Shown here piece after piece: positions 5,201 through 59,125 of a stretch of DNA of 64,000 nt. The position numbers and the translations under genes were made by a program. Position 1 is the first letter of the stretch, and every line of letters starts with the position of its first letter. Where the stretch lies: contig OX387202.1 in assembly GCA_947561715.1 (NCBI GenBank), positions 14,769,001-14,833,000 on the forward strand, given 5' to 3'. The DNA comes from Ascidia mentula (taxonomy: Eukaryota > Chordata > Ascidiacea > Phlebobranchia > Ascidiidae). Under the pieces are notes generated by a model. The model was not told the DNA's origin, did no database searches, and saw only the letters and a list, made by a program, of their open reading frames with translations.

Positions 5201-8200
5201 CATCGGGAAATGAGGATGCGCGAATTGTTCCCATCGGACAGAGCAGACGGAATTTCTTTAGGTTTGGAGTTTGTGCCGACACGGAAGTGACCTGAGTACA
5301 AAAAAACAGGAGAAATCAAAGGTTATGAAAGCTGTTGTTTGAATATAAAGAAATGATGTTGGAAATGATGACTATTAAAATGCGTGGCGGAACAACAGGG
5401 CCACAGTCCTGGGCCTGATTAGAAACAATGAATTGGTGGCCCGTATATCACCTGAACAGATTATCTCCAATCGATTTGACATTTTTGGGCCCCTTGATAA
5501 ATTGCGGGGCCTCTAAAAGCGTGGACCCGATTAGGGTAAATCGGTTAAATGGGCCTTAAAACCGACTCTATGTTAGCAACGAAAGCATAAATGATGCAAC
5601 AAAAAAAATTGCCAGATGTTATTATTATTATTCTGTACATCGCATCAAAATTCATCTTACATGTTGACCACTATATTAATTGGGAGCAATTGATTGTGGT
5701 TTGCCTGCAGACCTTGGACGATTACCAGCAGTAGATATAACGTACCTCCGCGTCAAGTGGATTATCACACACGCTGTCTGGATCATACTTGCGTTGTCTC
5801 ACCAACGAATTATCCACCGTGTTCGAACCCGTCAGTATCCACCTCGTCCACTCACCATCTGTCACGTAACAATACACATTGTTACGCAAATGAAATGCAC
5901 TTTCACTTTCTTCAGTGATGATGCCAACAAATGCCACAAGATACTTCATCCTATAATCTATAACTTCAAATAGCTGATTCAGGACCTATATATATGTAAT
6001 TTTATTATTCAAAACTACACGTTTGCCCCAGTTTGTCCTAGAGATTTATCCACTTTCAACCTCACCTTGTTTGCCGTCATATTCCTTCCAATGAGTAAGG
6101 TCCATTTCGGGAAGAGCGTCACAAGGTACGCGTTCATTTGAACCAAATGCCTTCATCATTACGAATGGTGATACCGTTTCCATGCCCTCCATGTTGTTAC
6201 AGAGCAAGGATGACATTCGAACTTTCCGCAACTCTTGAAGTTGCTCTGTTGGGGAAATTATTGCTCTGGTAAATTATGTGGGCGTAGGTGTTAAATTATG
6301 TGGGAGTAGAATTGTTAGGTTGAAAAGTATATGAACTATTGGTACAGAATTTGAAAGGCAGAAACATTTTAAGCAAACAAAAACGAGTTTGAGATGTATG
6401 TATGCAAATGCGACACTATTTTAGCATAGATACAAAACTGTATTTAACAAAGCAAAAATACTCTTCTGATAAAACAAAACACTTCCATAATACAAAGCCG
6501 TTATAGGCTTTTTTATAATGAGCCTGCCAGTGTCGTAACGCGAATTCAATTGAAGAGAAAATTGAAGGAATTAAAGACGAAACACTTCTGACAAATAACT
6601 TAAAATAGAATCAAAGTAAATGCAAAAAAGATTTTATTTCAGTATATTTTGTGATGCGCACGAACCCAGTGCCTTAATAACTACAGCTGACCTGTTGTGA
6701 ATTGTCCTGGGTTTTCGTGCCAGAATCTGTCACCCTTCCTCAATTCTCTGAACTGGTAAGCAAGCAAACAGGCAAACACCGGTCCAACCGCAGCCCCATC
6801 CACGGCCCGCTCCGCCAACCCCCCCACGTAAAGATCCACGTCATCCACGTGACTATAAAAGGGAAACGTCATAAATTTTTAAAGTTCAAAAAAAAACGAT
6901 TTAAGTCTGGGCGCTTTTCAATACTAAGTAATTGAGCTGAAATTGAGTAAAATTTCTTAGGAATTATGTAATGGTTTTTTTATACCACCATAACTCGAAA
7001 GCACTTTTACCATCATGAACCTAAACGTGTGCATTTAATAATATTAAACCACCTTTCCAATTTACGCCGTTTTTACATTTAGCCCTCTGGCGATTAATTT
7101 TGCATAATTTTGTTCTCTTCAGGAAAAGAATTTATACAAAGGATTATGTTAGTGATAAAATCACCATCTTTCACAAACATTTTGCGAGGAAGTTTCATTT
7201 ACGATTTAAAATTTACTATTTTTACGTAATTTGTGTGCTCTAGGACTTGTAACCAATAGATTCCTGCTTATGATAAACATAAGATTTTTCGACCAAATAC
7301 TCGCAACCAACCTGTAAACTGCTGCAAGTTTAGCGATGGTCGATGCGCTCATTGTGTCACCCAAATCGTTCCACCCCACTGCCCTCTGAAGGCCGCAGAA
7401 TTCCCGATAATTGTTGTATGGAGCCAAGCCGTGTTCACGGCCTCTTTGGATGTTGATGGAAAATAAATCTTTCCCTGGTACGGTTTCGGACTCGAACATT
7501 CGGCTGTTGATAAATGTTGTGTAAGAGATTGCTCGTATTTTTGAAAAAAAAAGGTCTTTTATGGTTCGGAGATTTTTTGAGCTAAAATAACCGGACATTG
7601 AGGAAACCAATGCACAACATAGCAAGTGGTTTACAATCCTCGCAATTATAACACTAAAGTGCTAGTTTTTGGTTAATTTTTCTGAAACATATTAAGTGTT
7701 TACGAAAAAGACAGTGGGCAAAAAGACGTACGACATAATTTCACCGCTAAATAATAACGTACTCAAATCAAGGTGAAAGAAGCACTTAAGAATTATAATA
7801 AAGTCCTGCAGGTATCTTTAATTGAACAACAACAACCCGGCTTACTTTCGAATGTCAGGAACAAAGGAGAGATCAACGCTAAACGCCGTGTCCTCAGTTA
7901 GACCACGCAAAATAGCTGGAGATGTTCCATTCTTTACGGCGTCCTGCTGGAACAAGCTTTTGAACATGGGTACCTTTGGCTCCTTTAACGTCGTGTAGTC
8001 GGCACCGGGGCGGAAAAAAAACTTTCCCACTTGGCTGTGGCCATACCTGGGTAGGAAATGAATTTTATGCATTAAACAGAGCAATAAAGTAAACAGATTC
8101 AACAGTGCAATGATTTGGGGCAGCCTAACAAGTTTAGACTGTGGTACCTTAACGCGAGTTAGGTAAGAATTTGTGTTTTTGGTGTTGTTCCTTATCGCAA

Positions 8201-11200
8201 GGTTTACTAAATAAATAGTTTAGGTGTTGTACCTTAAATAAACGGTTGTAAGCTCGTTGGCAGAGATTACAAGTTTTGACTGTTGTACCTTAACGCAAAA
8301 TTTATTAAATAAATAGTTTAGGTGTTGTACCTTAAATAAAACGGTTGTAAACTCGTTGGTAAAGATTACAAGTTTTGACTGTTGTACCTTAACGCGTGAT
8401 AGGGAAGAATGTGTTTTATGGGCGTTGTACCCTATGGCAAAGTTTATAATTGGTGTTGTACCTCAAAGCAGCGGTTGTGAACTCGTTAGCAATGGTGGCG
8501 TCGATCGATGCATCATATCCGTAATAGAAACCGTGTCTCACCGGAACCAAATCGAACTTCTGGGCCATATTCACACCGACCAGGAGAGGCACATATTCGC
8601 TGCAAGACAGATACAGTTACATGGTGAATAAGAGCTGCATGGCAATGGAAAAAAACGAAAAAAAACACAACACCTATTATAATCTAGCCAGGGCCGGTTT
8701 GAAAAATTTGAAGTTCAGGATACGAGTAACTTCGAGATTAACCATACCGATATATTCTTCTTATGTCAACTTCACACTTTACATCAATATTCATTGCATA
8801 GTACTTGATCACAAGGTGTTTTTACAATAAAACTGTGCGTCGCGACGCCTGTTTTAAGTTTCAAGGGCATGGCGTAACCATTTTGATAGAGAAAACTATT
8901 TTTTAGGAAAAATAGAGGCTATAATAACAAGCTAAGTCAACTTTCTGCGACTGTAAATGATTAACATTAGAACAACTCGACCTGATAGATTTAACAATCG
9001 CTGCTTCGAAAGTTTCGTGAAACTGTTCATAGTGCGTCGCACGCAAAAATGTTTTTGAAACCACCGGCTTACTTGTATGTGATGATCTGCAGGATGGCAG
9101 CTATAATTCTCCTAGTTTCGTGAAACAATGTATCAGAATCCCACAACTGGTTCAGGCTTTTCAATCTGCGAGCGATCCTGTTGTGTTCCCGAACCAGAAC
9201 AAGATGCGTCGCCGAAAGCCCGATGTTTTCGTTGGCGCGAACGTCGCCTGTGACGTCACATTCGAAGTAGTTATTAATATGAAATTCCTGTTGCTGCCAG
9301 GCATATTGCAATTAAAAATGTACTGATCTTCTGGTATAAACGTACTGTATTCTTACGACAGTAAAAGTTAATATTTGAAAACAAAAGCCAATTTGCACGG
9401 GTTTACGTTGTTGAATGTAGGTATATTAGTCTGTGCTGTGCGGACAATTTCGCACTTAACTATAGTTCTCCTATCTTTAGCTTTCAATGCGTATCTCAAT
9501 CGAAAAATCTATTAAAAGTGTTTGACTGAACCATACGTTTTTTATGCCTTACATAGACATCACCACTAATAGCAACATGTCTAACACTGCTTTTTTGTCG
9601 TTCAAAACTGACAAGCCTCTATCCGTTCGTACGACGTAAACATTAAACGGAATGTATAATAGGGGGTTTTGTGGCTTCACCTGAAATGTAGCAAGCTGAC
9701 CCTGGTGGGTTGAGGTGGGCGGGACAGTCGAATCTCTGCTGTATTTCGGGACTAAAAACCTCCTTCCTGGGAAGATTTCCGCGGGATTTCAAAAAGGGAC
9801 ACCCCCCGCTTTTTGCTGGACGTTCGACCAGGAGTTCTCCGCTGTCTGTAGGTTTTGTAATGAGAGAATGTAACAAAAAACATTTGTTCGCCTTTTACAA
9901 ACAGGATATGAACAGTAAAATAATTTTTTGACCAAATTACAATAACGCCAATGCTAAATACCATGTTTACTATTTAAAACCACTTCAAAATGTTACGCAA
10001 CAGAACAAACCACAAAAATACAAACAAAACTGCACAGAAACTGAAAAATCATTATCAGGACAATCTAAAAAGCCTAAAAACCGTAAACAAACCTGAATTA
10101 GGGTCTCGTAATGCTTTCATGAGTTTATCATCTGAACCATAAATGACTGTACCGTCGATGTAAGCGCTCAGAGTGGAAACTTGCTCATTGGGGTACGTTT
10201 CACAGCCCTGGGCCACGACGGAAGCTTCGAGAGGTATGCAGGTGGGGTGGGGCCCATAGTAGGGGTCATTGGGTCCCACGGGAAGATTGATGCAGGAAGG
10301 GGAGGGGTTGGAGCATTGACAGTCCACCTTGACGCCGTTTGCAACTGACCAGACAACAATTAGTGAATTATTAGATGTTGAATGGATTTTTCTATTGTGT
10401 AATGTGATAGAAATGGGACATTTATGTGTTAAATCTAGCGTCGTAATCCAGTAAAGGTTTGTACAATGTACCAAGATTCCACAATTTAACAACGAAAAAG
10501 AAATGTTGCTGTTTCGCAACACCAAAACTCAAAAAAAAATCTCTTATTTTTTATTTAGATCGGGCTTTTTGTATATTCGTTTCGTTTCACCCGATCATTG
10601 TTTCAAAGTGGTTTCAAGTAATTATCGTGTGGCAAGGGATGTTTTTATGTACCAGCAAATACTCACTATATAAGATATGTAGTCATTACGAGGCCTGACA
10701 GAATGCGTGATATATTATGCTTGCCATTTTTTAAGCATAAAGTTCCTAATACGCTTGCACGTGTGTTCTGTACTGTGTACTCCTGATGTAGAAGTTTTTA
10801 AACTTTTTGAATTTCCTTTTTGCGAATTTTTCAAAGTGCCTTCAAGTCATTAACGGTTGTTTTCAAAATACTAGAAATTACTAAAGCAATAAGGTGTGAC
10901 CGGGTAGCATGGAATATTTCGCAACACATCCTCGTTTTTGTGCATCCCTGTTCTAACTTAAATGAATAACATAGGCTTGTGTTCTATCCATAAACCCACC
11001 TTTTAACGGTCGCGCATGGGCGATGTCGTGTGTTATAAACTGGCCGAACTGTACGTGCATCGCACTCATCCCTGCCGTGAAAGTGGAAAACGAGTCGTTG
11101 TTGAGAGAGTTCGACAGCGTTCTTGCAGCTGGGAGATCCCCGCCTGTCCGCGACTTTCTGAACGTCTGTAGAAAAAAACGGCTTCAATTTTTAAAAAAGG

Positions 11201-42336: not shown

Positions 42337-45218
42337 TCAAGTTCTTGTCTTTCTGGAACTGAATAGTTTTAATCCATCTTTTCCTGTAGAGCTTCTGGCG
42401 TGCTTCGTTAACGTCGAGGTAACTGACAGTTCATCCAAACACACATCCCTTAAAGTAAAATGCAATGATTCAGCCCTAATACTTGTGTAGTTATATTAGT
42501 GTTGGAAAATTATCACTGAGCTACAGACAACGCACACTTTTTTGATAAAACCTGACAAAAAAGTGTTAACCTCTTCAACAAACAATAGTAAAAAGTTAAC
42601 AAAAACTGTTCAAAATGATCCAAATTTCTGTAAAAAAAAGCTTACTTGATATAAGGGACAATTTCACCAAACTTCCATTTTTCTTTCGCTTGAAACAAGA
42701 CTTCAAATCTTGCATCAACATCAATTGGCAGGTCTTCACTTTTTAGTAATTTGATGCACGGTGGCTGAGAGTTAGTATCAGTTAAGGCAAGACCCTGTAA
42801 CAAATAAAGAATTTTACGTAACGTTGATGTTTTGGGACCAGCTGAAAGAGCTCCTCTAAAATTAATTCTTAACATAATACATGTTAGACAATATAAAACA
42901 TACTGAACAAAAAATGTTGATTAAAATTCTTCAAATTGAAGAACAACTTTTCAGTAACAAATTTAAAGTAAGATCAGCATTTTTGGTCACAAGTGCTGAC
43001 AAAAATTAAAAGACAACTAGTGCCAAGAAAGCCTTGCAAAACAACAACATTGTCATTGTGCAACAAAATTCAATGCACAGATAAAAGTATCAGTAAGAAG
43101 AATATAATTAGTTTTTATCATTGTGTATCAACTAAGCCTATTGCCACCTGGAGGTAACATTCATCTGCCTCCATTCCCGCTGGCAAACTTTCCTTCCATA
43201 CTTCGAGAAACTCACCAAGGTTGAATTTACCAACGTCTTTCAAAAGCATCTCGGCAAAGAATCTGGCGAGCTAAAGAATTGAAAGATATAATCTTCGTTA
43301 ATCTTGATGAGTTTAACTTCATGTACAATGTGATTGTAGTTACCTCGCATTCGTCAAGTTTGATGTACAGCTTGCTGTCGTTTTCGGAAGTAAACTGTGA
43401 TCCATAGATTGACATCAGGTGTTTCACAACAAACCTATATGAATGTTTGTGTAAAAGTCACTATATATATATATGTTAGACACATAACAAGTTCACAAGA
43501 AAACACTTATGCTCAGTTTAATACTTATCAAAACTTTACATATAATATTAGTAATACCAATCGACAAGTTTTTGAAAAACAAATGAAATTCAGCATTTTT
43601 AACAGATAAACATTGAAGTAATATTAGGAAAAACACAAACCTTGGCACCAGTTCTCCGCTGTCATTGATAATTTCACAAAGTTCATCAATTGGTACTTTT
43701 CCACAATTCCAAGATTCTGACTCGATTACTTGTAAAATTTCACTCATGCAATCAACAATGTATCCAAAATCAAACAACCTCCAACGACCTAAAATCACAA
43801 AATAATTAGCAACGGGGAGACTATTTTCATATGCCTCCTTTTAACTTGATTTTTTCAACCAGCAAGTGTTTTTACTATGAAATTCAGTCAAGAAAGTAAC
43901 GAAGGACTATTCATATACAGGTGTAAGTTTACCATACTAATATAATGTGGTCAAAAAATATGTTAAAAAATTTCAGACTCACTCTCAATGCAACAGCAGT
44001 TGAACTTGATTAAAAATTTCATTATTTCGCACTCGCTTGCTTGGATTAATTCAACCAAATCTGTCAAGGAGTACTGTAAAGAAAATGGATAAACAAAAAA
44101 TAAATGAAAGATCGTCATTGGACTTATTCTCTGTTAGTATCAGAGTTGTTAGCTTTGCACTTACTGCTTTAGAAAGATCTGTTTCCTTTTCTGCTTCTGG
44201 TCCTTTGTACGGACACTGTTTTAGAAGTGTCAACATTCGTGTAACTCTTGGATAAATTCTTTTGAGCTCCATATAAGTGAAGCTCCATCCAAATGCCTGA
44301 AAATGTGGAAGGTTTAGTGATTTGCCATGAGCAAGATTTTCTTTGTCACGAAAAACTTAATGTTACTGGGATGCAAACAAGTCAAAACCGAAACAAAGTT
44401 TTGCAAGTAAAGTGGAAACAATTGAAAGTACCAAATAGTGCACAACATTACAATATATACATATGGCATTGTTACATTTTTGTCGACGGTTTCTGTTGAT
44501 GTGTGATCCATGCTGCTGTATGGGTGAAGATCATCTTTATTTGTGCTGCATTTCTCAAGAAGTATCATGGTGTTTGACGACATTGCCTTTTTTAAATCGT
44601 AAGTTTTATCTTCAGTGCAAAGAACAGCGGCATCTTCAGTTCCACCTCGGATGATTAACCTGAGGTATAGAAAAATTTTCTTTTAACTTTTAATTTGAAT
44701 TCAAATATCATTAGTTTGCTTATTCATCAAGTCAATTTTGAGTAAGGCATTATAGTCTAGTCTATGATACACCTTTTTGACATGGATTGTTTTTGATATA
44801 CCAGACTGGGAAAAAATGTCACTTTTGTGAAAATTTACCGATAATCCGTGCAATAGTAATGAGCTAATGTATTAACATAGAAAATAACGTTGCGATCGTC
44901 CGCGCAATTGAAAAAAAATTATTTGCACAAATTACTAACTCACCATGTCCATATTCAGGTTAGCATGTAAAAAGATAACATAATTGTTAAATTAAACTTA
45001 GTCACTTCTTACTCTTGCCCTGCTTCCACTTTTTCAAGCATATTTTTGTCCATTTGCAGCAGCATAAAGCTTTGGTCATCTGCATCTTCATCGAACTTTA
45101 GTAACTGGACAGGAAGCAAAAGATCACTTCTATCCAACTTTGCATGCTCCGTTCTCGCTCTCACGTCATCATATTCCGTCTGACTTTCGTCAACGTTAAT
45201 CATATCCACTTCAGCCAT
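42337..45218 (-). CDS. DSCC1: DSCC1, subunit of the CTF18 alternative clamp loader
   Basis: Exons in gene order: 45218-45013, 44659-44476, 44296-44165, 44073-43983, 43788-43641, 43434-43344, 43270-43148, 42794-42646, 42448-42337. Phases close on 411 residues (human DSCC1 is 393). Family blocks seen include AAVLCTEDKTYDLKKAMSSN, ESESWNCGKVPIDELCE, VWKESLPAGME, a GLALTD block, EKWKFGEIVPYI and the tail LTKHARSSTGKDGLKLFSSR. In vertebrates and yeast, DCC1 joins CTF8 and CTF18-RFC to load PCNA and to promote sister-chromatid cohesion in the nucleus. The start at 45218 (MAEVDMINVDES) is preferred over an in-frame upstream Met at 45320, whose extra codons show no similarity. The gene lies about 530 bases downstream of PHGDH on the same strand. 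Confidence 0.93.
44801..44925. repeat. Dispersed repeat, copy 1 (partner at 52807-52930)
   Basis: This segment of DSCC1 intron 1 and the segment at 52807-52930 in MRPL58 intron 2 share CCAGA(C/T)TGGAAAAAATGT, GAAAATTTAC, ATAATC(C/T)G, CTAATG(T/C)ATTAA and GTCCGCGCAATT in the same order and orientation. They are two diverged copies of one interspersed repeat of at least 120 bases. Class unknown. Confidence 0.65.
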
Positions 45219-45747: not shown

Positions 45748-48700
45748 TTAAAATTGCACAGCAACGGCATCTAGACTTTGAACGACTTTCTTAGGAAGAA
45801 CTTTATCAAGACCAACTGCAAATTCTTGCCCGCCAGCACTTGATAGTGACGTCACAGAACATCCTTCTTCAGCAATGAGACCTGTAATTGAAGGATATGT
45901 ACATATATTAACTGGCAAGTCAGTGTATAATTCTCCATCAGTACATCGACATTACATGATGCTTTTTGCACTGCGCATGTTACTTACCTATGGCACCGGA
46001 AAGATCCTTGTTGGAGCTTTTGAATAGTGCAAGATTTCCTTTCATAACTACTGGAACCGAAAATTTCAATCCATTCATTGAAACGAGCACTGGGGTTTGG
46101 CTGATCACAGATACCACGAAGCTGAAAATAAAGTTGTAGAATTTTGTATTATTGTCGTTAAATAATTGACACCTGATAAAGTAGGAGGAACTTTTGCATT
46201 TTAATAATATAAAAATTAGTTTTTCCAATAGCACCAACCAAGAAAAATGCAGTTCCATGTCAGAAGACTTGCTCAAGTTTAATAAACAAATGTTTACCTT
46301 AGAGACACAACTTCAGTCTTGACAGTAATCATGCAACCGCATTTTTCGCTTAATGGATGTTTTCCCAGGAAAATCTGCAAGAACACTCGTTTGGTTAAAC
46401 ACTACACAGGCAAATTACAATTCCACCAATAGATAGTCTCTGAAATGATTAACCACTGTTTTTCATAGTGTCCTGAATCAACATATTTTTCACCTCAGTC
46501 CCTTGGCTTGATAACAGGGCAGCTGCATTCACAAGATTAACGTTATTGCTACATTGCAAATATCCAGAGCAGAAAGCTGCCTTGAGGCAGTGACCAGCAT
46601 TGGCAAGGATTGTACCTGAAATAGACAAATAAACATTGAAAGGAATTGATTCCCAAGATGAATTATTCCTTCTCACCGTATGACTCCAAGGTAACTTCTT
46701 TAGGATTCGTCTTCATGAAACCTTTAAGGAATTTTCCTGCGGCTGTCATGGCGGATATCCACTCGGCCATTTCAGCAGATGCTCCTTGACTCAATGCTGG
46801 GGCATTTAGCTGTAAATTATCATTACCAATTATAAACTTAAAAGTTTGTGCATTTTTAATCAATAAATGTGCCAAAAAAGGTAATCTAAGATAAAAAAAC
46901 ATTTTTTTAAATATATTAAAATTTTACTAAAAAAGGACTGTTACCGGTATTTTACAAGAAACATAATCAGCCACATTTCAAAAAACAATTCTAGTTCAGC
47001 ATGATATCTTACAACTCCAAAAAAGCATTTTCCCTCTGAAACATCAGCTATTTGGTCAGCTATTTCACGACCGCAACGCGATTGTGCTTCTCTGGTACTA
47101 GCACCAAGATGGGGGCATGCAACCACTTTGGGGTGTTTTACTAATGCCAAGTCTGTTGGCGGCTCCTGTGAACAATGTAATAATTTTACCCACTGTATGC
47201 AAAATTTCTTTTATACATGTGATTCCACCAATCAACGATTTACAATTCAAAACAGGTCACTGCATATATTCAGGTAAAAAATACAAACTTATCACCCAAG
47301 TTTACCCAATAAGTTTCCAAAACATTTATTTTTGCAAATTAGTCATTGACCTGCACATACACATCCAAGCCTGCACCACCACATTGGCCACTTTCCAAAG
47401 CACGCAGTAACGCTCCTTCATCAATTATTCCTCCGCGTGCGCAGTTGATTACTTTTACTCCCTTCTTGCACTTTGCAAATGTGTCGTCATTCAAAAGACC
47501 TAAATTGAAAAAAAATTTTGATTTCAAAAAATATATTTTTTTTTAAATTTTCGATTTTATATTTGCTGTTATGCATGTCACTGAGAACAATCAAATTGAC
47601 AATACCTTTTGTTTGGGGTATAAGAGGTGTATGAACAGTAATATAGTCAGCTTTTGGCCAAATTTCAGTACATTCCATCCATTCTATGTCATATTTAGCA
47701 GCTTCCTCTTTGGACACTAAAGGATCAAATCCAATGGTCTGGAAAATGTAGAAGCATTTGTGAAATCTCCAAAAAGGATTTCCATAAAAAAGATTAATCA
47801 ATTACCATACCTTCATGCCAAAAGACTGCATTCTAATAGCAGCTTCCCTGCCTATTCTTCCAAGTCCGACAATTCCAAGGATTTTGCCATATAGTTCGTT
47901 GCCCATAAACTGAAAAATATGTATATATACTGAAAAATAGTGGGTTATAGAAAAAGAATATGTACATAGAGAGCTGCAGACAGAGTGTACACACTGTTTT
48001 GTCCTGTAATATCTCATCAGTGCAGCTGTTGCCTGTGGCACTGCGCTAGCTTTTACTCCAGCATGCGCACAGATTTCCGCTAATAGGTCGAAACAGTGTG
48101 CACCCTGTCTGCAGCTCTCAATGATTATTATGGCTTTTTTGGCAACAAATATGTACATAATATTGCAATTAACATAAAAATAATAAAAAACACAAACACA
48201 ATCTCAAATTTGTTTTACCAACTGTACACAACCACAAGCAATTACACCATTAAAACAAATATAACCAAATGAAGCATGGCTTTATGCACAAATCTACAAA
48301 ACAAAGATTCTTACAGCTTTTCTGTCCCATTTTCCAGCTTTCATTGATGCATCTGCAGCAGGTACATTGCGACTCAAGCACGCAATCAAGGTACAAGTGT
48401 GCTCTGCAGCACTCAAAGTGTTTCCTCCAGGGGTACTGCACAGTTAAGAAAATCATAATAAATTTCTCGCAAATGCCTTTTTATGAACAAAACGTACTTC
48501 ATCACAATCACTCCATTTTTTGTGGCACAATTAATGTCGACATTGTCTACTCCAGTTCCAGCTCGACCAATAATTTTAAGGTTGGGGCATTGCTCGATTA
48601 TGTCTGAATTCACTGTGGTTGCAGAACGGACAACCATTCCATCATATTTCTGCAACACAACAATAAATATGTCATTAGTTATAGACTTGCTACAAAAAAC

Positions 48701-49186
48701 TAGCCCTCAAAAACTTACGTCAGCAGATTTGTAATTAAAATTGATTTCGCTTATGCACTGAAGGCATTATCAGTTTCTTATTGAATAGAATTAGTTATTC
48801 AGCGTAACAGACAGAGTGTTAAGTTTTAAAAATTTCATTTGAAAAAATTAATTATATTTACAAATGGTCAGCCTGCAATGTCATTACTTAAAATAAAATT
48901 TACAAACCTATTAACCACTATAATTCCAACTTTAACTTAGCAGTAGTGCTGCAAAAAATTGTTTGCAGAGGTTTAACAAATAAACATACATCTATTGGTA
49001 GTGTGCTTACAAGCAATTATATCATCATTTACATAATTCACATTATACCTGCAAGTCTTCGATCAGCTGTTCCTTCGTTAACTTATCTTTTTGCAGTGTG
49101 GCATTTATACCTCGACCTTCAAGAATGGTTTTGGCACTTGGATCCACGTTGTCCAGCAGCAACACGTTTTTAATTTTAATCGACAT
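45748..49186 (-). CDS. PHGDH: D-3-phosphoglycerate dehydrogenase
   Basis: Exons in gene order: 49186-49049, 48649-48498, 48435-48315, 47909-47811, 47738-47606, 47499-47351, 47165-47013, 46809-46677, 46615-46494, 46374-46298, 46121-45988, 45881-45748. The frame closes on 514 residues (human 533). It catalyses the NAD-dependent first step of serine synthesis from 3-phosphoglycerate in the cytosol. Visible are [11 protein letters not shown], the Rossmann motif [11 protein letters not shown] (GLGRIG at 152-157), [11 protein letters not shown] with Arg236, Glu265, and ACPHLGAST with His283. These catalytic residues fall at the same numbers as in the human enzyme. The C-terminal regulatory part (exons 8-12) is present but diverged. 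Intron 3 carries a full MITE. The start is fixed by [16 protein letters not shown], the expected N-terminus. Confidence 0.95.
47969..48119. mobile_element. MITE, complete copy (PHGDH intron 3)
   Basis: A 151-base element with terminal inverted repeats GAGAGCTGCAGAC and GTCTGCAGCTCTC, extended inward by GAGTGTACACACTGTTT against AAACAGTGTGCACCCTG. It is non-coding. Related copies lie at 468-519, 2967-3020 and 37248-37365, so at least four members occur in this window. The flanks do not give a clear target duplication beyond a possible TA-like dinucleotide. Confidence 0.8.
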
Positions 49187-53916: not shown

Positions 53917-54915
53917 TTAAAAAACTCTTTTAGTCTTGTTGGTTTTGAATTTGGTGAGTGTCCTCATTTTCCTCACATGCGCGTCGGAAGGTTGCACTTT
54001 TGCCTTCGTCGGCAGTAGAAAACGTCTCCGGTAATCTTTAAATGTGAGTAATGTGCAACAGTTGTTAAGCAACGTATTGTAGCCATGTACAATTGCGGGA
54101 AAAGATCCAGAAATCAGGGCCAGTTGCAAAATTGACATTGTGGCAACGATGATCACATCGCTGAGCACACAGACACTTGTAAATACACCGATTCGAATGA
54201 CGACTGCTCTCACCTCTGCGTTGTACTGTTTCAGATACACGAACGGAAACAGCGTCAGAGGAACAAGAATCAATTGGGAGAAGGCAAAACAGCCTAGGGA
54301 AACGCGTACAAGTGCTGTGGGTTCATGGTTATTTACATATTGACAACCCAACGAAGATGGTGCGCGTCGATAGAACAAGACGATCCCGATACAAATCAAA
54401 ACGCTTGCTGCGTTTGTACCGAAGATCAGAAACTGTACGAACCTAATGACCCTGAAGGTTTTGCGACCGTACCGGAAAGCGGTTCCGCTGTAGACGGTCC
54501 ACTGCCGAAACCAGAGCAACAAAACCACCAAGCTTCTGCTGATGCTAAAGCACACAAAGCCTATCTGAAACTGAATAAAACAAATTACGTTGTTCAACTT
54601 TTCCGAGTAAACCTCTGGGCCGAGACTTGAAACTGTTACCAGAAGAGTTAAAGTTGATAGGGTGCAGAAACGGTTGGTCCACAACAAACACTCCTTCTGG
54701 GATGTTGACAGATATGCGACTGAACAAACGCTCAGAAAGATACAACCAGCCATCAATGGGGGCCACAGGGCCATTTCGTAAGTCCGAAATAGAAATGGTA
54801 GCTTCGAAACGGTCTCTGTTTGGCTTCCAAATGGGTCTACTGTCGTGTTGTTCTGTATGCTTGCAAAGTTTAGTATTGGCAAAGTTGGCATTTTCCTGTA
54901 ACCTAAATCAAACAC
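53917..54915 (-). CDS. Intronless 7TM receptor-like protein
   Basis: This is the longest uninterrupted frame in the window, 332 codons. Seven hydrophobic segments can be placed, from WPPLMAGCIFLSVCSVAYLS through ICFIQFQIGFVCFSISRS and RVIRFVQFLIFGTNAAS to PAIVHGYNTLLNNCCTLLTF. A short N-terminus with an NNTT glycosylation site precedes them, and a basic Lys/Arg-rich tail follows. It looks like a G-protein-coupled receptor by topology, but it lacks a recognisable DRY after helix 3 and NPxxY in helix 7. I cannot assign a family or ligand. An acceptor-like TTTGATTTAG overlaps the first codons. The true start may therefore be the Met of MPTLPILNFASI, or an upstream exon may exist. Confidence 0.7.
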   Translation of the reverse strand: MFDLGYRKMPTLPILNFASIQNNTTVDPFGSQTETVSKLPFLFRTYEMALWPPLMAGCIFLSVCSVAYLSTSQKECLLWTNRFCTLSTLTLLVTVSSLGPEVYSEKLNNVICFIQFQIGFVCFSISRSLVVLLLWFRQWTVYSGTAFRYGRKTFRVIRFVQFLIFGTNAASVLICIGIVLFYRRAPSSLGCQYVNNHEPTALVRVSLGCFAFSQLILVPLTLFPFVYLKQYNAEVRAVVIRIGVFTSVCVLSDVIIVATMSILQLALISGSFPAIVHGYNTLLNNCCTLLTFKDYRRRFLLPTKAKVQPSDAHVRKMRTLTKFKTNKTKRVF

Positions 54916-55914
54916 TCAACCAAAATCAGATAGATCTATAATAGTCAGTATTCCTAACGGTAAAAAAATTACATGCGTAAATTTTAACATCCACCAAAGC
55001 TGCATTCAGTTTTATGCTGTATATCCCCTTAAACTATTGCTGCACTCCACGCAATAGGCTATTTATGCATTATCGTTCAACGGCATAATTATTTGCGCAA
55101 ATTTTATGATCTTATCAAAAACTATTGGAATACATAAATATTTCATTAATGTCAACCAAATATTGTTTTTCACTCATTTCGTCCCTCAATGTAAAAGCGA
55201 AAAACATGTGAATATTTAATACGAGATGTTTATTAGTATCAGAAAAATAATTATAACAACTCTGCCCATCTTCAGAAGGCAAAACGTGGATCGAAACGAA
55301 TTCGACAAGTTTTAGCATTGAAACGTTTGTAAAATATTCCTGTAGACCAAAGTATAAAACATTTTTTTACTCGCGTGATCATTTTGTTTTAAATTCGAAG
55401 CTGAGGGATTAAAGGGCATGTAGGCTTCGGGGCAGCGCAGTGCCAAAACCTCTGCTAATAAAGCACATGACCAGGTTATGTTACTTGCCGTTGTTCTTGT
55501 CCTGTGTCATGTAGCTGTGTTTCCAGACAGTCGAATTTAGAAACAAATTTGTGGTGCCTATTACGACTATTTTACGATCTCGCTTTAGCCATCTGCAGCA
55601 CGGTGCCCCCTTCGTCGTCATTTCCCAAAGAACGAGGCCACGCCCACTATCCACCCACTCATGTAGCCATACGGCTGAAGTTTGTCAACATTGGAACTAC
55701 GGTATTTCGAAATGCTATGTAAGCTGTTGTCAGGATCAAAGCGATGTTTGTTTATGGTTTTGTGTGGACGTTAATGCACTACATCTGTGTACCTAGGATC
55801 TGTGGTCTGATGAATCATTTGTTTTGAGCTCTGAAGTGGTGTTTGGAATTCTGGCCCCATTACAAATATGATAGTGCTGCTGTAGGTAAAACAACCAACG
55901 CAAAACGATTAAAA
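54916..55914. other. Divergent intergenic region between the 7TM gene and the kinase-like/KEN gene
   Basis: About 1 kb between two start codons that point away from each other. No coding similarity or repeat was seen. It should contain both promoters. A short GC-richer block lies around 55590-55690. Confidence 0.5.
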
Positions 55915-58900
55915 ATGGCAGCAGAATTTGAAGTTGTTTCTGATGTTAAAATAGAAGGACGTAATGGATCCCTAATACAGATGTGAGTTAACTGTGTGCT
56001 ACAGCTTTGTTGTATCTAATTGTGTATTTAGCATTCATTTTTTTTAGATACAAAAACGCCCAATGTATGGAGTATGCTGGAAAAATGATTGACCGATCCA
56101 TTTACCGAAACTACACAAATGAAATTGAAGTTTTAAAATTGATTGTTGGAGAATGCCCCAATGTTGTCAAGTTTTTTACTACCATTACGCCAAGGGGCAC
56201 AGTAAGTTGAAGAGATGAATTCTTACTTAAAATCGAATAACAAATTAAGCACACCAGAACATTAAATTACCAAAGCAATTATAAATGCTTTGTAGAATCC
56301 TAGTCCAGTGATTTTGATGGAGCTTTGTGATTGCAACCTTAAACAGGTATTGTTGAAAATACCCACCCCTTTTTTCGCAGTAATGATATATATTTGTTGT
56401 GCCTTTCAGTATGTGAAGAATGATTCTACATTTATTGCTCTGAATAATCGTACAATGCCCCCAATGCCCCCAATGCAGTATTTTGCTGATGCCAAAAAAA
56501 TTTCTTTGGCAAAACAGATGTGTGAGGCTTTGGAATTTCTACACAAGCAGAATATAAGTAAGCTTGGGTAATAAACCAATAAAACATAACATAAAACAGT
56601 ACTTCCCTCAGTTCATGGTGTCATTGCTCCAAAAAACATATTGCTAAAACGGCAAGGTGACATCACTGTTGTCAAAATATCAAGCTATGGATTTAGCAAA
56701 CATCTTCCTGAGAATGTGTCTGGAACTTTTTATTCGCTGGAGTGTGAAAAGGAAGGCTTCACTGCCCCTGAGTTTTCCACTTCGGAAAAAGTGGTAAGTT
56801 GGTATCACCATGTGCGAAATTTATTGCTTGATTTAATATTCATGTGTTTTGTACATAGAGAAAGTCTGTTGACATTTTTTCCCTTGGTCTGGTGCTATTT
56901 TATTTATTTTCTGATGGCAAACATGTGTTCGGGAAAGGTCCAACTAAGTGGCAACACAAAATTGACAATAAAAAGGATCCAAGTTTTTCTAATGTCCGTG
57001 AAAAAAGTGGTATGTGTTTGTTTAAATTGTAACGCAACATTAAATTTCCCTGGCTGATTTGATCAAAAAACTTTTTGTTTGTAAAGCCTGCTTTGAAAAG
57101 TACAAATTAACAAGGGAACAAGCAGTGTGTGCAGTAGATTTAATCAGGAAAATGGTGAGAAGTGATCATGCAAGTCGTTACAGCATACAAGAAGCTTTGC
57201 ACCATCCTGTTTTCTGGTCTGCAAAGAAAAAAATTAAATTTTATGAGGTTTGTTCATTTTCTTCTGATTCTGTAGCAAAAAACTTATTATTCTTGTGTGT
57301 TTGACAGGAGTTACATAAGTTCCTCAGCAATAATCAATCAAAGCATTTCGATGGATTAGATGAGTATAGGCAAGATTTACTAACCGAAGGTGGCAAGAGG
57401 AATTCCTTTTCGGTTTTATTGGCAAATTTGCCTTTTTCCATTGAAAATGCATATCCCAAAAGCGGTGCTAAAGAATGCAACAATGTCAAAAACCTCATAA
57501 GATTGATCAGAAATCTGGTGAGTGTGAATGAGACTGTAGCTGGGTGAATTGTTCACCCCAGTGTAAGTTACTTAGTTATAATTGGAAAAAAATCCATGTT
57601 TTGGGAAAAAAACACCATCTTTATTTCCCAAATTTTTACTTGTTTTTGATGTTTAGCTTTAGTAAATATAGCACAAAAATAAAAAACATGTGAAATAGTG
57701 CAAGCTGAGTTGTATTTTTTTGTTAATTTACCTGTTTTGACGTTACAACAGGCTCAACATGTAACTCACAAATCAACGCATATTGAGATAAAAAAGTGCC
57801 TTGGTGTCAATGTGGACGGGACGGCATATGATGCAGATGTTTTTCTGGAAAAGCTTACGTCAAACTACCCACAGTTGCTCGCCCACTTGTACGAATTTTT
57901 CAGGGATAAGAATATTCAAGGCAACTTCTATCCAAGGTGAAATATTGTTTCTATAAAGACCAATTGTCATGTTTTCACAAGATTTTGTACGAATGATATC
58001 CACAGTTGCTTTACTAACTCAAATGCACACAGTGCAGTAGTTAACAAACAAAAAGTGTATTCAAATATTTTTTTTACAGGCAGGTTGGAGACAACAGAGT
58101 GAGAACCCCAGTGGCATGTCAGTTCAGTTTTGTTTCATTTTTTACACCCCCTTTATTAAAAATATTCTATATTCCAATCAGCCCCACGACACCAGGTTCC
58201 AACAGAAAATACTCCAGTACCAGCTGTGGAATTACCTGATGAAGTCAAAGCATTTCTCAAGCAGCATCAGATTGAAGGTGAGTTTTAATAAGTGCATTGT
58301 TCTTGTAATTTGTTGCAGATTTCTGCAGATTTGCCAGGAACATCTGCATAATGTTGTAAACCAGTGGTTCTTAACCTTTTTATTCTCATTTCCTACTTTC
58401 AGTTTGAACGAAATCCTTGACCAATTTTTTTTTTCCAACTACTTTTGCGTATTTCGGTGCCAACTAGCCTACAACCCCACCATTTCCCCCAGGTTAAGAA
58501 CCACTATTTTACATGTAATCACCCTTTACATGTAAAATAGCCACTATTTTACATGTAATCACATCATTTTTATATGGATGGTTGGTGAGCAATTAATCCC
58601 TGATGCATTGTATTTGATTCAGAGGAAGACTTGTTCAAGTGTGACTTGGAAATTTTCCGATGTGGTGTGTCCGTTGTCAGCAGAAACGTGGATCTTCGAC
58701 TACCTTTGACAATATCTGGACCCAATTACTCACCGAACTCCAATCTACCTCACATTGAGATTCCAGGCAATAAACTGCTGCCAAATGTGCAAGGCATACT
58801 GGAGGACTTGAACCAAGGGCTTATACTATCGCGAAGCGGGTGTGATTTGGTTGCAAGGCGAGATGGGCTTACGAGAATATTTTGCCCTGAGAAAATGGAG

Positions 58901-59125
58901 CAAAATAAAGAAATCACATTTTTTTCCCTTGCTAGCGTTTTGGCCAATCCCGCATTTAAGGTGCCTGCACATAAATTTAAGTTTACCATTGGAACTGATC
59001 CTAGCAGAAAAGATTTGCCTGTGCCAGCATTTGAGGTTGTTCTAAAACCTTTAGTTGTAAGTAAGTTAAGCGAAATTGCTATCGCAAATGAATTGCACCA
59101 CTCGGATGTCCAAAAATCTGTGTAA
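55915..59125 (+). CDS. Kinase-like + KEN (RNase L/IRE1-type) + IRF-association-like domain fusion
   Basis: Twelve exons: 55915-55982, 56048-56201, 56296-56346, 56410-56557, 56612-56793, 56859-57009, 57087-57247, 57308-57517, 57752-57936, 58080-58117, 58182-58277, 58623-59125. All phases close on 648 residues. Residues about 20-290 are a kinase fold: Lys35 in YAGKMID, QMCEALEFLHKQN, and VDIFSLGLVLFY. The HRD motif reads HGV (142-144) and DFG reads SYG (165-167), so it is probably a pseudokinase. Residues about 290-437 match the KEN domain (HHPVFW, NLIRLIRNLAQH, YPQLLAHLYEFF), closest in feel to RNase L. After a linker, residues about 487-640 resemble the IRF association domain (DLEIF, LEDLNQGLILSRSGCDLVAR, ITFFSLASVL). 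No ankyrin repeats, lumenal domain, signal peptide or membrane segment is seen. An innate-immune RNase or regulator is inferred. Poly(A) signals lie at 59490 and 59560. Confidence 0.85.
58362..58565. mobile_element. hAT-like MITE plus adjacent palindromic repeat (intron 11 of the fusion gene)
   Basis: The element 58362-58506 starts CAGTGGTTCTTAACCTTTT and ends AGGTTAAGAACCACT, perfect inverted termini of about 15 bases. Directly after it, CCACTATTTTACATGTAATC occurs twice (58501-58520 and 58542-58561), with TTTACATGTAAAATAG between them forming a palindrome. It is non-coding. Confidence 0.75.

Follow-up and report, generated by a model that had tools for sequence, protein, structure and literature searches.

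A predicted Ascidia mentula gene that appears to join an IRE1-type pseudokinase-KEN front to a divergent IRF association domain

The locus and its pseudokinase-KEN front

We analyzed a 64,000-nucleotide stretch of Ascidia mentula DNA, referred to here as the window, in which a multi-exon gene lies on the plus strand at positions 55915 to 59125. Scripted splicing of 12 exons yielded an open frame of 648 residues followed by a stop codon, with compatible exon phases and GT-AG boundaries at all 11 introns. A preliminary description of this DNA had proposed twelve phase-compatible exons encoding one protein of this length, and the splicing bore that model out. The start codon, with A at -3 and G at +4, lies in exon 1 (55915-55982), which together with exon 2 (56048-56201) encodes the N-lobe of a kinase fold; K35, encoded by exon 2, aligns to a lysine of IRE1. 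The fold continues through exons 3 (56296-56346) and 4 (56410-56557), through exon 5 (56612-56793), where the HRD (catalytic loop) and DFG positions are found, and through exon 6 (56859-57009), which contributes to the C-lobe (SVDIFS), and it ends in exon 7 (57087-57247). The KEN domain is divided between exon 8 (57308-57517), which ends in RNL, and exon 9 (57752-57936), so that an R-N-L-A-Q-H motif straddles the two. Linker exons 10 (58080-58117) and 11 (58182-58277) lead to exon 12 (58623-59125), which carries the stop codon and appears to encode a divergent IRF association domain (IAD; residues 482-648).

The gene has neighbors on the opposite strand. A 332-aa frame (53920-54915, minus strand) lies head to head with it about 1 kb upstream; it is hydrophobic, looks by eye like a seven-transmembrane protein, and had no Pfam match at 0.01. 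The other neighbors, all on the minus strand, are a 2-hydroxyacid dehydrogenase exon (48416-48706), Dcc1-like exons (42645-44356), and animal haem peroxidase exons (7209-10528).

We compared the 648-residue protein with Pfam. Pkinase matched residues 14 to 294 (1e-32), and Ribonuc_2-5A, the KEN family, matched residues 361 to 429 with 25.4 bits, above its cutoff of 23.3; the domain by itself scored 28.3 bits. A kinase fold followed by a KEN domain of the RNase L/IRE1 class had been the preliminary call, and both matches agree with it. A six-frame search of the whole genome with the KEN family did not list, at E 0.001, the KEN domain of the window, which is split between exons 8 and 9. Using phmmer against the PDB, we found the front half to be collinear with IRE1 over residues 35 to 424 (best solved-structure match, E 2.2e-24). 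Its closest solved relatives were IRE1 chains, and no RNase L chain was present among the best 60 of 1236 PDB rows.

In the alignment with IRE1, both motifs expected of an intact kinase are altered: HRD reads HGV and DFG reads SYG. The kinase is therefore probably dead, that is, a pseudokinase. The resident IRE1-like gene, which was recognized by its kinase-KEN part only, keeps HRD and DFG. The kinase of the preliminary description thus stands as a fold and is refined to a probable pseudokinase whose nearest solved structures are IRE1 chains. No Pfam match to ankyrin repeats, a lumenal sensor, or a transmembrane segment was found in the 648-aa model or in the six plus-strand frames from 54902 to 55983. 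The earlier statement that ankyrin and lumenal sensors are missing accordingly holds for the gene model, the 5' end of which is predicted from the DNA.

The position of the IRE1 KEN tyrosine, Y892, reads K in the phmmer alignment, and for this reason RNase activity of the KEN domain is likely but not certain. The R-N-x3-H motif (R-x4-H) is kept, with RNLAQH aligned to RNKKHH of IRE1. An Rx4-6H motif with a polar residue after the R is given as the HEPN/KEN active site in the sections of PMC3710099 used here.

These residues bear on what a fusion protein of this kind would do. One alternative, which we consider unlikely, accepts a single fusion protein and has its IAD act on the IRF network, as a decoy or scaffold binding IRFs or adaptors, while the kinase-KEN part serves as a platform with weak or absent RNase activity. 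We reason that competition with IRFs is possible for an IAD that has no DNA-binding domain, and the R of the RLCQ segment is retained in the IAD of exon 12. The loss of the kinase catalytic residues and the lysine at the KEN tyrosine position would also suit a platform. However, the R-x4-H motif and the N after its R have been kept amid strong divergence, which suggests selection for RNA cleavage.

Continuity of exons 9 to 12

Exon 10, only 38 nt long, is the least certain exon. Its donor (AT/GTCAGT) is mediocre, making it the weakest link of the gene model. Direct splicing of exon 9 to exon 11 or to exon 12 breaks the frame, and exon 10, which restores phase, is therefore required. Exon 11 comprises 32 codons and is frame-neutral when skipped, so that 9-10-12 is also in frame. 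No Pfam family scored above its cutoff on exon 11, and a MurD_N match on the linker (E 0.049 to 0.11) was dismissed as chance. By eye, exons 10 and 11 matched none of the open frames that precede the IAD in three resident IRF genes (L003, L004, and L005). From the reading frames, we infer that exons 9 to 12 are carried on one mRNA.

Tunicates have operons and trans-splicing, and it might be proposed that two head-to-tail genes, perhaps in such an operon, encode a pseudokinase-KEN protein of 437 residues that terminates at the intron 9 TGA and a separate IAD protein from the last exons. The mediocre exon 10 donor would agree with this arrangement, as would the immediate TGA met upon read-through of the exon 9 donor, where the frame ends in GNFYPR. 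The second protein, however, would have to begin somewhere. The final in-frame ATG before the IAD is at 57152, in exon 7. Exons 8 to 11 contain no in-frame ATG, and neither do the open frames leading into exons 8 to 12; the sole in-frame ATG of exon 12 (58895) lies in the middle of the domain. A single mini-exon found in introns 8 to 11 (58578-58584) combines an ATG with a strong donor, and its use would leave an intron of 38 nt. A separate IAD protein would thus need an unseen start. Moreover, among the 21 genome matches listed for the IRF DNA-binding domain (PF00605), none falls in the window. We regard a separate IAD gene as unlikely, and give the two-gene arrangement as a whole rather little credence.

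Lying where intron 9 begins (57935-57940), the same TGA would stop an intron-retaining transcript just after the KEN domain. Retention of intron 9 is a possible source of an isoform consisting of the pseudokinase and KEN domain without the IAD.

Homology of exon 12 and exon signatures of the two halves

We compared the C-terminal region with PF10401, the Pfam IRF-3 family that represents the IAD and that the preliminary description had singled out. The match was low: the full protein scored 18.1 bits and the C-terminus alone 21.2 bits (E 0.00027), both below the curated cutoff of 27. In a whole-genome search with the same family, exon 12 (E 0.07) ranked 13th among the 14 matches listed. The remaining 13 fall in six other places, each near an IRF DNA-binding-domain match, one of these weak.

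We then built a profile from six IADs of other loci in the same genome, leaving exon 12 out, and scored exon 12 together with 5000 composition shuffles and one reversal. Exon 12 ranked first of the 5002 sequences, with 17.6 bits versus 10.4 for the best shuffle. Among the 1319 frames of at least 30 aa in the window, it was the only good IAD match (E 0.00019; next, 1.5). The motif segments quoted in the preliminary description as following the order of an IAD did align in the right order in the six-IAD alignment. Pairwise, exon 12 shares 22 to 23% identity with three resident IADs, in order across the domain. Compared with the resident IADs, it is missing the LCQ motif and some of the N-terminal region.

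As a further comparison, PDB chains were searched with a profile of three resident IADs, with or without exon 12, and with either of two shuffled versions of exon 12 as controls. Addition of exon 12 changed the best E-value for IRF4 from 4.4e-11 to 8.9e-15 (shuffles, 2.2e-11 and 4.9e-9). IRF3, not found by the starting profile, was detected at 1.2e-6 (0.05 with one shuffle, none with the other), and IRF9, likewise not found before, at 6.5e-4 (none with either shuffle). For IRF5, the value went from 6.7e-13 to 1.7e-13, and the shuffles gave 1.2e-13 and 9.3e-12. Exon 12 therefore clearly sharpens the profile for IRF4, IRF3, and IRF9, while for IRF5 one shuffle equalled it.

Searches with exon 12 as a single sequence were less responsive. 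Profile-profile comparison with hhalign gave a weak match (probability 17.5%, E 0.0014). phmmer of the C-terminus against the PDB returned no IRF, only two weak fibronectin matches, and a search of its own genome at E 10 returned no resident IRF, only exons 12 and 11 themselves.

Structure models were of low confidence. AlphaFold2 (AF2) applied to exon 12 alone reached a pLDDT of 31, and a fold search with that model had no IAD in the best 50 of 67 rows. With two IRF rows added, the best model reached a pLDDT of 48 and a pTM of 0.36, the other four remaining at pLDDT 31 to 35; by eye, the three-row alignment that was folded misaligns the first strands. A two-row alignment with another sequence, P0002, misaligned the domain start and was dropped before folding. 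Foldseek with the best two-IRF-row model returned IRF IADs first and then SMAD MH2 domains, with TM-scores of at most 0.45 and none at E 0.001. These matches to IAD and MH2 structures lend weak support to an IAD.

The position of introns provided a further type of comparison, made by eye throughout. A phase-1 intron precedes exon 12, at [E]EDLFKCDL. In three resident IRF genes, L003, L004, and L005, a phase-1 intron interrupts the same aligned codon ([V]ESLLTYEL, [A]EELFTYEL, and [D]KELFTFEI), and the rest of the domain is intron-free down to the stop codon, as it is in exon 12. The site was thus found in three of the seven IAD loci read. L012 has a phase-1 intron close to where the domain starts, displaced by about two codons, and in L006, L008, and L009 the acceptor is inside the IAD. 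An eighth IAD locus, L016, was not located by the script and stands outside this seven-locus comparison.

The front half was compared in the same manner with the resident IRE1-like gene, at five of its eight introns, and three of the five sit at exactly the same sites. The first, which opens exon 5, precedes the HRD histidine in phase 1; only its acceptor was seen in the IRE1-like gene. The second, opening exon 6, lies three residues before VDIFS in phase 0 (TQAVDIFS in the IRE1-like gene). The third, opening exon 8, is a phase-0 intron at FFE/DVSD in the IRE1-like gene and FYE/ELHK in ours. Of the two introns that do not match, the one at RN is 7 nt away, and the other cannot be aligned owing to indels.

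Since three introns of the front match the IRE1-like gene and that of exon 12 matches three IRFs, each half appears to bear the exon signature of a different resident gene, and the whole resembles an IRE1-type front followed by an IRF-type IAD exon. All of these genes are on one contig of 21.17 Mb (C70), with the IRE1-like gene at 9.30 Mb, the three IRFs at 6.38, 13.28, and 18.25 Mb, and the fusion gene at 14.83 Mb. This common location would fit an intrachromosomal shuffling event.

That the C-terminus is no IAD at all, its likeness being chance in a fast-evolving tail, is very improbable: the Pfam score is below threshold, a single sequence gives no fold, the hhalign probability is low, and pairwise search did not reach the resident IRFs, but exon 12 is favored by the shuffle tests with both the six-IAD and the PDB profiles, is the sole good IAD match in the window, has in-order identity to three resident IADs, and has its intron site and phase exactly in common with three IRF genes. 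Homology of exon 12 to the IAD is therefore supported. The IAD call of the preliminary description is now backed by a shuffle-tested profile, by the profile searches of the PDB with their two shuffled controls, and by an exactly shared intron site.

Proposed origin and relation to known systems

The explanation that we favor, and hold to be probable, is that a divergent IRE1-type kinase-KEN paralogue acquired at its 3' end, through exon shuffling, the last exon of a resident IRF gene, which encodes the IAD. The product would be a soluble protein composed of a pseudokinase, a HEPN/KEN ribonuclease, and an IAD. By analogy with RNase L, the dead kinase fold may serve the KEN nuclease as a dimerization scaffold and a nucleotide-dependent switch. 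The IAD is a protein-protein interaction domain, and here it would take the place of an ankyrin or lumenal sensor as the input to the RNase. Self-association of the IAD, or its docking on an adaptor or partner IRF, would pair two copies and turn on RNA cleavage. RNase L itself is described, in the portion of PMC4718504 used here, as a pseudokinase thought to scaffold homodimers, with an RNase that is activated by ATP binding.

More tentatively, the signal that activates IRFs might switch an RNase L-type nuclease directly. The IAD would bind the activated adaptor or phosphorylated partner that IRFs themselves dock on, dimerize the pseudokinase-KEN part, and cause RNA cleavage without 2-5A or transcription. 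We are doubtful of this extension; if true, it would be a third type of input for the IRE1/RNase L nuclease.

The predicted protein resembles IRE1 (ERN1/2) in the order of kinase fold and KEN domain and in the three exact intron sites common to the fusion gene and the genome's IRE1-like gene. Unlike IRE1, the model has no lumenal sensor, has lost HRD and DFG, and carries an additional C-terminal domain. It shares with RNase L the soluble pseudokinase-KEN architecture, but the model has no ankyrin repeats, and hence no 2-5A sensor of the known type, and has an IAD instead. According to the part of PMC6307210 considered, four sponges and eight other lower metazoans lack RNase L; no tunicate is among the species named there. 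With IRFs that have an IAD of the IRF4/5/3 type, the predicted protein shares a terminal exon with a divergent IAD and the phase-1 start of three resident genes, but the fusion protein has no PF00605 domain, and its IAD is shorter, under the Pfam cutoff, and truncated at its C-terminal end compared with the three resident IADs. The sections of PMC11841930 used here state that homologues of IRF3 to IRF9 are absent from protochordates such as tunicates; we claim an IAD for the fusion gene, not orthology to IRF3 to IRF9.

An expansion of the KEN family is on record for one tunicate, Oikopleura dioica, the solo KEN proteins of which, according to the sections of PMC3710099 used here, expanded separately from the kinase. 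Table 1 of that paper gives kinase, ankyrin, CCCH, UBI, and BRCT as KEN partners and no IRF domain, and the term IRF is absent from its main text. Nine IRF genes are described in Ciona (PMC2885996), none of them as joined to a kinase in the 12 of 26 places of that paper covered. We found no report of a KEN-IAD protein in the open-access literature searched, in line with the earlier remark that no such join had been described. In a protein collection, candidates preselected by shared words and length (461 for the IAD part and 6441 for residues 265 to 648) included no orthologue at E 0.001. Two proteins found with the IAD alignment were, by eye, like the resident IRFs L003 and L005 and unlike the fusion gene, and were set aside.

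The combination of KEN and IAD is a new architecture made from known parts. In vertebrates, RNase L and IRFs represent two arms of interferon defense, and if their modules are joined here, a KEN nuclease would have been rewired to IRF-type signaling outside the known RNase L pathway. The gene would also offer a simple system for asking whether an IAD can switch on an enzyme, beyond its role in a transcription factor.

Candidate IRF partners exist. The genome holds several IRF loci, including a tandem cluster at 909 to 925 kb of contig C52. This array (C52:909968-925240; L006-L009, L028, L029, L032, L033, and L035-L037) contains at least four IAD exons, and the near identity of L006 to L007 across the IAD suggests a recent duplication. 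A divergent IRF-like locus at C70:9976295-9982033 (L013 and L016) has weak DNA-binding-domain and IAD matches, all of them below the cutoffs.
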